DNA of 64,000 bases from an uncultured Buttiauxella sp. (GTDB lineage Bacteria > Pseudomonadota > Gammaproteobacteria > Enterobacterales > Enterobacteriaceae): positions 339,352 to 403,351 of the forward strand of contig CAMLJN010000001.1 in NCBI GenBank assembly GCA_946480445.1, read 5' to 3'. Of this stretch, positions 771 to 2,423 are shown piece by piece. Under the pieces are notes generated by a model. That model was not told where the DNA came from. It did no database searches and was given only the letters and a program-made list of their open reading frames with translations. The position numbers were made by a program, and so were the translations under genes. How positions within the stretch are numbered: the stretch's first letter is position 1; every line of letters begins with the position of its first letter.

Positions 771-794
771 AAAAGCCCGCCATTCCTGGCGGGC
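771..794 (-). terminator. Rho-independent terminator after the 280-aa membrane protein gene
   Basis: On the minus strand an 8-bp perfect stem (GCCCGCCA / TGGCGGGC, loop GGAA) is followed by TTTT. It lies 49 bases beyond the stop of the gene at 843-1685 and just before cos. Confidence 0.75.
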
Positions 795-842
795 CTCAGC
801 AAAAACGATCCTCAAACGATCATGCGGATTCATGCAGCATAG

Positions 843-1685
843 TCATGCACTACCCTGCTCTGCGTCGCCAGCAGTCCTTCTCCTGCGTGTTGATGGCTTT
901 TTACCACCCAACTTGCGACAGTCTTTCCGGTCGCGCGCTTCGTCTTCTTTAAATTTGTTATACGTTTCAGTGTCAAAAAACGAGATGGTTTCAACTTCAT
1001 CTTTAGGGATTAGCACACGGAAATCCTGGATATTCAGGCGCGACATCCCACCGATAACGCCGCTTTCAAGATAGTGCTGATGATAGTTCGTCGTGATGCT
1101 TATCGTGAGATCATCTTTATCACGATAGCCGCTTAACATAGGGAGTATTTCCAGGTGTTCCGACAGCCCATTTTCCAGCGCCGGACACGTCACTAGGCCA
1201 ACATAGATTTTTCGCGATGAGAGTGTCGCGATGATCGGAAATTGTCGTGCTGATGCTTCCATCAGCAATGACTCAAAAGAGTTATTCCCCACAGCCTTAG
1301 CAAGTGCATCCCAGCGGCGATCACCACTCTTTGTACGCAACTTATTACCCAGGCCAGAAATTGCAGAAAGCACAATTGAAATAACAACCCATGCAATCTG
1401 CTTGATTTCATTGATACGCTGGGCTTTGTCGGATGAAGTAGACAACATGCCGTTGAAGCTATCCGGCGTAAGATTAAGCTCATTGGATAGCCAGCGGAAC
1501 CCACCTGTAATATTCAGGACGAAGGTTAAAAAGCCACCGACCAGAAAGAACACAATTCCCCAGGCGGCGACAAAAAAATAAGCGTCCCAGCCATTGGAAC
1601 GCTTATATCTGTAACGTGTTGAAAGTGATAGGTTTACATATATAAAACCACTAACCAAAATCACTGCTAAAAGTAATGTTGCCAT
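843..1685 (-). CDS. Phage cargo membrane protein of unknown function
   Basis: I do not recognise a family for this 280-residue protein. It has three hydrophobic segments near residues 1-22, 34-62 and 95-113. After these comes a cytoplasmic-looking domain of about 150 residues and a very basic tail (KKPSTRRRRT). Its ATG overlaps the stop of the upstream 72-residue gene (TAATG at 1683-1687), so the two are translationally coupled. A terminator follows at 771-794. The pair sits between dinI and cos, the interval that holds tin/old in P2 and varies between relatives. A role in phage exclusion or defence is plausible from position and architecture (small soluble protein plus membrane effector) but unproven. 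Confidence 0.8.
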   Translation of the reverse strand: MATLLLAVILVSGFIYVNLSLSTRYRYKRSNGWDAYFFVAAWGIVFFLVGGFLTFVLNITGGFRWLSNELNLTPDSFNGMLSTSSDKAQRINEIKQIAWVVISIVLSAISGLGNKLRTKSGDRRWDALAKAVGNNSFESLLMEASARQFPIIATLSSRKIYVGLVTCPALENGLSEHLEILPMLSGYRDKDDLTISITTNYHQHYLESGVIGGMSRLNIQDFRVLIPKDEVETISFFDTETYNKFKEDEARDRKDCRKLGGKKPSTRRRRTAGDAEQGSA

Positions 1686-1903
1686 TATCGGGTTCTGTAA
1701 TAATGTTTTGCTTTGACAGTGCTCGTTTTGATGCCTTCAAGCTTATCCATCTGATCTCTGATGGCTTTCATAGCTTCTTCGTTGGACAAATCTACGGACA
1801 CAAAACCATCTTTACTCAGATTGAGCTTGTCCTGGTTCTCTTTCAGAACCCGTGCCAAACGTTCAACTGGATTACCCAGCCTCAATGCGGCGATACTTGA
1901 CAT
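1685..1903 (-). CDS. Small soluble partner of the adjacent membrane protein, unknown function
   Basis: This is a 72-residue hydrophilic, mostly helical protein with no signal peptide or cysteines. An AAGGAGGGG ribosome site (minus strand, about 1906-1914) lies 5-8 bases before the ATG. Its TAA overlaps the next gene's ATG, giving a two-gene operon that ends at the 771-794 terminator. It could be a sensor, chaperone or antitoxin-like regulator of the membrane protein; the sequence alone does not decide. Confidence 0.75.
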   Translation of the reverse strand: MSSIAALRLGNPVERLARVLKENQDKLNLSKDGFVSVDLSNEEAMKAIRDQMDKLEGIKTSTVKAKHYYRTR

Positions 1904-2189
1904 AACCCCTCCTTCTTATATGGCGCGGAAGTGTACTCTTCGTCACCAGCAACCACAACAGCAAATTCCTTGTAACTAAGACAACCGTTTTAACTGTTGG
2001 TTGCGTTACTTAACTTAAGTTCATTGCCCCTAATCGCGCAAGATGTTTCTGCTTTAAGCCGCTGCATTTAGCATATATAGTGCCTCTTATGAGAAGTAGG
2101 CACTAACCAAGACAATTTCTAACGCCTCGCATGGCTCGTTGTTCAACCTTGCGGACGGTAAAAAACAGTTTTATCGTCCGCAACGTTCG
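1904..2189. other. Non-coding gap between the two-gene cargo operon and dinI
   Basis: I see no convincing gene here. The gap should hold the promoter for the leftward 72-aa/280-aa operon. Its right end carries a strong hairpin (2149-2183). Its composition is more AT-rich than the phage core genes. Confidence 0.5.
2149..2183. terminator. Long hairpin downstream of dinI
   Basis: TTGCGGACG (2149-2157) pairs with CGTCCGCAA (2175-2183). Pairing continues inward through one G-U and a TAAAA/TTTTA arm, so nearly all of it pairs around a four-base loop. It begins 7 bases past the dinI stop and probably ends the SOS transcript. It lacks the usual T tract after the stem, so the T-rich arm may serve or it may be an RNA-stabilising hairpin. 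Confidence 0.5.
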
Positions 2190-2423
2190 CTAATGTAACC
2201 AGCTGTCTCCCTCCCAGACCTGCTGCATTATTTCCATCACTCGCTTTTTGTCTTCATCCAGTTTTAACCCGCTCAGCTCGACGCCGTTGGCGCTGCCCTT
2301 GCGGATACGAATTGCTGTTTTGGGATACAGAGGGCGCAAATTACGGTAAAGCTCGGATTCAAGGGCGTCCAGTGTAGCCTGGCTAATCTTCTGCTCTTTA
2401 TCGATCATTATTTCAATGCGCAT
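2190..2423 (-). CDS. DinI-like SOS protein
   Basis: This 77-residue protein starts MRIEIMIDKEQ and ends with a KKRVMEIMQQVWEGDSW helix, the same layout as E. coli DinI (81 aa; acidic C-terminal helix that binds the RecA filament). DinI-like genes are common in 186-related prophages and are thought to modulate RecA during induction. It is the second gene of an operon with the 62-residue gene upstream (12-bp gap), driven from a promoter under two LexA boxes at 2659-2689. The ATG has a GGGGGAGAT ribosome site. Confidence 0.85.
   Translation of the reverse strand: MRIEIMIDKEQKISQATLDALESELYRNLRPLYPKTAIRIRKGSANGVELSGLKLDEDKKRVMEIMQQVWEGDSWLH

Follow-up and report, generated by a model that had tools for sequence, protein, structure and literature searches.

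A co-inherited two-gene unit of P2-like prophages and other mobile elements encodes a membrane protein with a predicted Sm-like domain

What might a pair of overlapping genes do in the cargo region of a P2-like prophage when neither product can be named? The question is raised by a 64,000-nucleotide (nt) stretch of DNA from an uncultured Buttiauxella sp. (assembly GCA_946480445.1, contig CAMLJN010000001.1, positions 339,352 to 403,351; hereafter the window), in which a gene for a small soluble protein (gene 1) overlaps one for a membrane protein (gene 2). A preliminary description, made from the letters of the window, had presented the pair as a discrete module and a candidate abortive-infection system. 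We find that the two genes are inherited together as a discrete conserved module, and the pair appears to be a mobile protective or addictive unit, unusual both in its architecture and in its regulatory element. Three points go beyond the preliminary description, namely a Sm-like fold predicted for gene 2, the spread of the pair outside the P2 phages, and a terminator-like hairpin inside gene 2. As to function, our preference is tentative and held at somewhat less than even chances: the pair may be a lysogenic-conversion module in which a membrane effector is either restrained or armed by its small partner, most likely protecting the carrier against other phages.

Relatives of the pair were drawn from 99 of 129 pattern-matched stretches of genomes (the best 80 being used), from 164 of 166 matched stretches of viral contigs (again the best 80), and from a further set (34 of 37), with phage, plasmid, and Escherichia coli records added. 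A profile match was present in 201 loci; 175 usable ones gave a gene 2 of 230–340 amino acids (aa), and 82 were left after the removal of near-copies. In 77 of 80 non-redundant relatives (the 82 loci less two in which the contig ends), an open reading frame (ORF) of 50–110 aa ends no more than 60 nt from the gene-2 start, compared with 57 of 216 control ORFs, which were mechanically listed from the same loci at 220–360 aa. The upstream ORF ends within −20 to +16 nt of that start in 68 of the 80 relatives and 26 of the 216 controls. The two proteins also diverge in parallel, the distances among gene-1 copies tracking those among gene-2 copies with a rank correlation of 0.77 across 64 loci, a value reached in 0 of 999 permutations. 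Co-conservation in other genomes, on which the preliminary description had staked its claim of a discrete module, is thus what we observe. By profile, both genes are full length in 113 of 137 distinct loci and neither is in 4. Gene 2 falls short of full length beside an intact gene 1 in 8 loci, with no clear case of the reverse, an asymmetry that says little because gene 1 is a four-fold smaller target. Gene 2 is, as judged by its ratio of nonsynonymous to synonymous substitution rates against the window copy (0.04–0.06 in five of seven comparisons, the other two being saturated, with 0.07 for gpA), under purifying selection.

The pair is found across temperate phages, plasmids, and chromosomes of several proteobacterial classes and Acidobacteria. 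By their record titles, the 82 loci belong to Gamma-, Beta-, and Alphaproteobacteria and to Acidobacteria, and a Binatia contig is present among the shorter or broken gene-2 copies. Of the 82, 23 have a P2-like gpA, portal, or terminase gene in their neighbourhood. Elsewhere the sites are varied: the pair stands between minor tail and tail assembly genes resembling lambda K and I (L159), between endolysin and terminase (L182), beside the integrase and attP in Cronobacter phage phiES15, and, in E. coli C5, between hokD and DUF968/RusA/Q genes, with a gene 2 of only 195 aa. Among 50,697 phage records, 12 match, representing seven phages (phi14.1, SEN5, C5a, SEN4, phiES15, U5, and U6); phi14.1, SEN5, and C5a are Peduoviridae, SEN4 is by name of the same species as SEN5, and phiES15 has an integrase. 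Plasmids carry the pair in 31 of 72,556 records, 25 of them from Salmonella, and both Salmonella records examined are conjugative IncC plasmids. In the loci inspected, cargo fits these unrelated sites, plasmids, and chromosomes better than a phage structural or lysis role, which we reject; homology of that kind, named in the preliminary description as the finding that would undo it, is therefore unlikely to apply.

Some of these positions bear on a different reading, in which gene 2, acting in the inner membrane, would keep related phages from injecting their DNA; gene 1 would assist, and the cell would not die. In locus L172 the pair lies among tail genes, with a phrog_791 gene on one side and the tape-measure gene on the other; a similar gene precedes the pair in L171, where the contig ends, and in L080 the pair is upstream of a tape-measure gene. 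HK97 carries gp15 at such a tape-measure-proximal site. In Pseudoalteromonas phage C5a the pair is located in the interval from repressor to integrase, on the same strand as both and with further genes in that interval, which would likewise suit superinfection exclusion. PMC10883804 describes SieA of P22 as a three-helix inner-membrane protein that blocks phage DNA injection, and the likeness to gene 2 (inner membrane, three predicted transmembrane helices, carriage by prophages) is one of description only, resting for gene 2 on prediction. SieA, however, is sufficient alone and much smaller, at 162–164 aa, whereas in gene 2 the soluble domain is large and conserved, and a small partner is conserved beside it; the pair is also found on plasmids and chromosomes. 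Exclusion at entry is a rather unlikely account.

The neighbours of the pair were scanned with 104 of the 121 nearest neighbours listed, from 64 loci that mostly lie outside the P2 group. The Pfam family matched most often is that of integrases (8 of 104), and no other exceeds it. In PADLOC, 197 models match some neighbour, 25 of them being listed. Ten proteins were then chosen by hand, the window's two adjacent cargo genes included. Four neighbours among them match strongly, namely a CD-NTase in L089, a type I restriction subunit in L114, DRT3a in L204, and an AbiLi/AriA-like ATPase in L086; three others match weakly and three not at all. A SEFIR-domain gene was also seen just after the pair, in the same hotspot, in Klebsiella phage ST15-OXA48phi14.1 (L001, 7059–8492).

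With its own genome counted in, gene 2 is matched by profile in 38 of 198 genomes sampled from the family, 9 of 369 from the class, and 12 of 398 from the phylum; a few of the matches are weak or partial, three of them in the family. By DNA comparison, 61 of 5426 complete E. coli genomes carry the pair, 51 of them over at least 80% of its length; a count of 1179 of 5426 was rejected as a measure of prevalence, the query having taken in flanking DNA up to dinI. A possible gene-1-like orphan without gene 2 occurs in Klebsiella phage Kp4865-1 (L225, 3974–4153; E = 0.2).

Both proteins match PHROG families over nearly their whole length, gene 2 PHROG 3630 (E = 1.4e-97) and gene 1 PHROG 9843 (E = 6.4e-36), and both families are listed without function in the PHROG library. 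Profile searches gave no fitting Pfam or NCBIfam family for the window proteins and no single such family common to their relatives, and PADLOC 2.0.0 (2023 release, which newer systems postdate) gave 0 families for either. The preliminary description had recognised neither protein, and in these databases that judgement stands. The label DUF2207, attached to one E. coli copy, was rejected, since only 1 of 83 gene-2 members matches it (E = 0.01). A literature search covering the PHROG names, protein accessions from a number of copies, and membrane proteins of Sm-like or LSm type in the context of phage defence returned no description among the matches listed, the supplementary tables of Rousset 2022 and of DefensePredictor (PMC13092281) lying outside its scope; no paper naming PHROG 3630 or PHROG 9843 was found.

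What the proteins look like is clearer for gene 2. Its hydrophobic segments (residues 1–19, 39–57, and 91–109) coincide broadly with the three main helices of an AlphaFold model built from 83 sequences (mean predicted local distance difference test score, pLDDT, 89.7), so the three-helix membrane protein of the preliminary description is upheld by prediction. Shorter helices lie between and after these helices and lead to a barrel of six strand segments and a C-terminal helix (Table 1). Searched with Foldseek against the PDB, the 50 matches listed are small nuclear ribonucleoprotein/spliceosome or LSm entries, the Sm-like entry 3by7, and one NatC entry. The best E value is 5.4e-3, TM-scores by target range from 0.41 to 0.72, and none of 600 matches reaches E = 0.001. 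The C-terminal domain is thus predicted to adopt the helix-then-barrel fold of Sm/LSm proteins, as a resemblance of fold and not as homology; two sequence comparisons with solved structures yielded nothing convincing (best E = 0.083 and 0.035). The barrel would lie in the cytosol, because positive charges after the first helix put that loop inside.

Conservation was checked on 23 profile-found gene-2 proteins that are not identical to any alignment row (25 loci examined). In these G13, G32, Y161, G163, G186, and Y201 are invariant wherever aligned, P182 and F237 are kept in 21 of 22, S185 in 20 of 22, and R188 in 19 of 22. The residues after R188 vary (D189 in 14 of 22, K190 in 8, and D191 in 9), and SGYRDKD, which had served as a search probe, was dropped as an invariant motif, being partly an artefact. 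Gene 1 modelled alone gives a low-confidence helix, beta hairpin, and helix (pLDDT 64), as might be expected of a protein that folds on its partner. The profile and structure comparison foreseen in the preliminary description therefore gives a new result for gene 2, the predicted Sm-like fold; the gene-1 model is of too low a quality to be searched for structural relatives.

RNA binding is common among proteins with Sm-like folds. This general property would suit a lysogenic conversion unrelated to defence, for example in inner-membrane physiology or in the handling of RNA at the membrane through the Sm-like domain. Passages of Rousset 2022 (PMC9122126) place partition systems and a toxin in the P2 hotspot, so non-defence cargo is found there too. 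The spread of the pair over many types of mobile element suits a function in conflict better, and we consider a non-defence role improbable.

The arrangement of gene 2 recalls known membrane effectors. PMC11014256 describes Csx23 as having N-terminal transmembrane helices and a C-terminal cytosolic sensor domain, and Cap15 as disrupting membranes once activated. The layout of a transmembrane plus a cytosolic domain is common to these proteins and gene 2, but Csx23 and Cap15 answer cyclic nucleotides of a linked system, and the predicted fold of gene 2 is Sm-like instead. A linked nucleotide second-messenger system was not seen, the neighbours including no regular synthase and just the one CD-NTase among the 104. 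SNIPE is likewise a membrane-anchored anti-phage protein with a cytosolic domain, and its role is at phage entry; it differs in having one transmembrane helix, DUF4041, and a GIY-YIG nuclease, whereas gene 2 matches no nuclease family. DUF6338 resembles gene 2 by eye, in its N-terminal hydrophobic helices and a C-terminal motif. Homology to it was rejected, with a profile-comparison probability of 5% (from only 5 DUF6338 rows) and 0 of 83 gene-2 members matching the Pfam family at E = 0.1.

The third novelty lies in the DNA of gene 2. About 80 nt into the gene, a hairpin with a stem of 10–12 bp and a short loop is followed by a T run (−18.6 kcal/mol, with 0 of 200 shuffles as good). In 24 of 83 members the natural sequence folds far better here than synonymous recodings do (z −2.7 to −6.3); for 22 of them 0 of 200 recodings are as good, and for the other two 1 and 2. 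Among the remaining 59 members, seven have z below −1.64, with different folds. Codon choice across the 24 is conserved at 0.77–0.84 in windows starting at codons 26–30, compared with a median of 0.37, and a fold scan along gene 2 (14 of the 24 members, 35 positions) has its sole outlier (−2.65) at start codon 22, all other positions lying between −0.76 and 0.93. Because the hairpin clade was defined after the recoding result, a fixed-rule scan repeated the test on all 83. It recovers an in-register hairpin in 21, three of the 24 missing the strict rule. Eight other members have a hairpin elsewhere, in four cases close to or past the gene-2 end, and 507,132 nt of control coding sequence contain 5 such hairpins. 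The exact pattern falls inside gene 2 in 54 of 54 viral-contig matches and has one copy in the window's own genome, and an Rfam match over the hairpin stays below its cut-off. In the tree, 23 of the 24 hairpin members form one supported clade, all of whose members have the hairpin, and L058, with a weaker one, lies outside. These comparisons indicate that the nucleotide element is real and selected, and that its conservation in the window's clade exceeds what the protein sequence would demand.

Whether this element ends transcripts is a separate matter. From its intrinsic-terminator form we infer that it terminates transcription. It could instead be an element acting at the DNA level, such as a recombination boundary, or a messenger RNA pause site that aids membrane insertion, and a change in identity to L001 and L005 does fall near it. 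In the alignment of the 24, 97.9% of pair cells are standard and five of the ten pairs never vary; the single covarying pair changes together, being UA in 17 members and CG in 7 with no mismatch, and by our reading of the tree the 7 CG members fall on three separate branches. With a T run also kept on the 3′ side, we regard a non-terminator role as unlikely.

The identity change belongs to a mosaic stretch in the centre of gene 2 (about 1585–1160), where DNA identity to L001 and L005 is 65–83%, against about 90–100% on either side and 95–100% from gene 1 to the hairpin. This pattern suggests recombination between alleles within gene 2. Mosaicism also explains better the low synonymous divergence of gene 1 relative to gene 2, and synonymous constraint across gene 1 was rejected on that ground.

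A terminator that limits an effector has precedents. As set out in PMC12373285 and PMC8167048, type III toxin–antitoxin systems and AbiF use an intrinsic terminator to hold the downstream effector below the level of its inhibitor. In those systems the terminator separates the gene of an RNA inhibitor from that of the effector, whereas here the upstream gene encodes a conserved protein and the hairpin falls within the reading frame of the effector. The tandem-repeat RNA antitoxin of type III systems was not found, the only tandem repeat in 600–2700 being AT-rich, at 2658–2688, upstream of a 71-aa ORF. A built-in terminator would also favour an excess of antitoxin if the pair were an addiction module that stabilises prophages and plasmids, with gene 1 a labile antitoxin, gene 2 a membrane toxin, and any anti-phage effects secondary. 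The order of the genes, small one first with a coupled membrane gene second, and the presence on conjugative plasmids would fit as well. Yet the pair is also chromosomal beside ordinary genes, where addiction has no clear use, and a simple pore toxin would not be expected to be as large or as strongly constrained as gene 2, which leaves addiction with a low probability.

The protective module that we favour might work as follows. Most transcripts would stop at the intragenic hairpin, leaving gene 1 in excess, and gene 2 would be completed only when ribosomes re-initiating at the stop–start overlap cover the hairpin. The gene-1 protein would bind the cytosolic domain of gene 2 and keep it inactive until an infection cue frees it; the freed protein would then disturb the inner membrane, in the abortive manner, before the infecting phage multiplies. 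The abortive infection proposed in the preliminary description is therefore plausible, and we infer an antiviral role, but the data do not separate abortive infection, exclusion, and addiction. A bolder version is doubtful in our view, namely that the pair is a widespread, undescribed anti-phage system whose Sm-barrel membrane effector is held by a small protein and gated by an in-frame intrinsic terminator. It would form a translation-coupled lock, with the effector made only when ribosomes from the inhibitor gene keep the hairpin open, and effector synthesis without inhibitor synthesis would be forbidden.

Several observations weigh against protection by such a mechanism. The hairpin is missing from 59 of the 83 members and so cannot be essential to the system, only the one pair of its ten covaries, and two of five covariation measures do not exceed their shuffles. 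An intact gene 2 occurs without a profile-recognised gene 1 in 12 of the 137 loci, at least 8 of which have a small ORF upstream, in some cases of uncertain identity. Many neighbours of the pair are ordinary genes, and the defence genes seen beside it come from hand-chosen proteins without a matched control, which makes that observation weak.

If the protective reading holds, a two-gene system with a membrane component in about a fifth of the same-family genomes sampled would have been overlooked because neither protein has a domain name. The membrane-anchored Sm-like domain would add a new type of sensor to those of membrane effectors, and the in-frame hairpin would be an unusual safety device, a terminator suppressed by the effector's own translation. 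Should its function lie outside defence, the pair still offers a clear case of cargo moving among different kinds of phage, plasmids, and chromosomes.

Within the window, the prophage gene order is portal, 310-aa ORF, DGQHR/DndB-like ORF, the pair, dinI, 71-aa ORF, and gpA, and the portal and terminase are 84% and 94% identical to annotated E. coli copies. The pair thus sits in the A-to-cos (gpA-to-portal) cargo interval of a P2-like prophage, which is variable between phages. Sections of Rousset 2022 (PMC9122126) and Vassallo 2022 (PMC9519451) treat the gpA–gpQ interval of P2-like phages as a site of defence systems. No Shine–Dalgarno sequence was seen in the 30 nt preceding the gene-2 ATG, and together with the stop–start overlap this makes translational coupling of the two genes likely. 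The hairpin 3′ of gene 2 (−24.6 kcal/mol, 1 of 200 shuffles as good) is a probable terminator, though a simple consensus terminator scan did not list it. On the ORFs with their positions and sizes, the overlap, the A-to-cos placement, and, with that qualification, a terminator of the pair's own, the preliminary description agrees with our reading.

Table 1. Positions of the features discussed, in window coordinates
Feature	Position	Strand	Remarks
Gene 1	1685..1903	minus	72-aa small soluble protein, PHROG 9843
Gene 2	843..1685	minus	280-aa membrane protein, three predicted transmembrane helices and a predicted cytosolic Sm/LSm-like domain, PHROG 3630
Stop–start overlap TAATG, gene 1/gene 2	1683..1687	minus	
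Gene-1 Shine–Dalgarno sequence AAGGAGG	1908..1914	minus	read directly from the sequence, ahead of the gene-1 ATG
Predicted transmembrane helix 1, residues 2–19	1629..1682	minus	
Predicted helix 2, residues 32–60	1506..1592	minus	overlaps conserved RxxGWxxYFxVAxxG motif
Predicted helix 3, residues 87–119	1329..1427	minus	
Predicted Sm/LSm-like barrel, residues 151–236	978..1235	minus	conserved Y161, G163, P182, G186, R188, Y201
Terminator-like hairpin, gene-2 codons 27–36	1578..1606	minus	T run 1577–1572 follows
Probable intrinsic terminator 3′ of gene 2	772..797	minus	GC-rich hairpin then TTTT
dinI-like gene	2190..2423	minus	context outside the module, upstream of the pair

Other features of the surroundings may be recorded. 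Between the pair and the portal lies a second two-gene cargo (window position 1 to about 600 and the preceding stretch, L205 12039–14185), made up of a DGQHR protein with weak similarity to DndB and DpdB (E = 9e-8 and 3e-8) and a 310-aa protein without a PADLOC match. A long hairpin at about 2142–2186, between dinI and gene 1, could be the dinI terminator or a leader of the pair. Upstream of the 71-aa ORF and dinI, positions 2659–2674 read CTGT-N8-ACAC with one mismatch, which we take to be a LexA-box-like motif and a hint that the genes preceding the pair are under SOS control.
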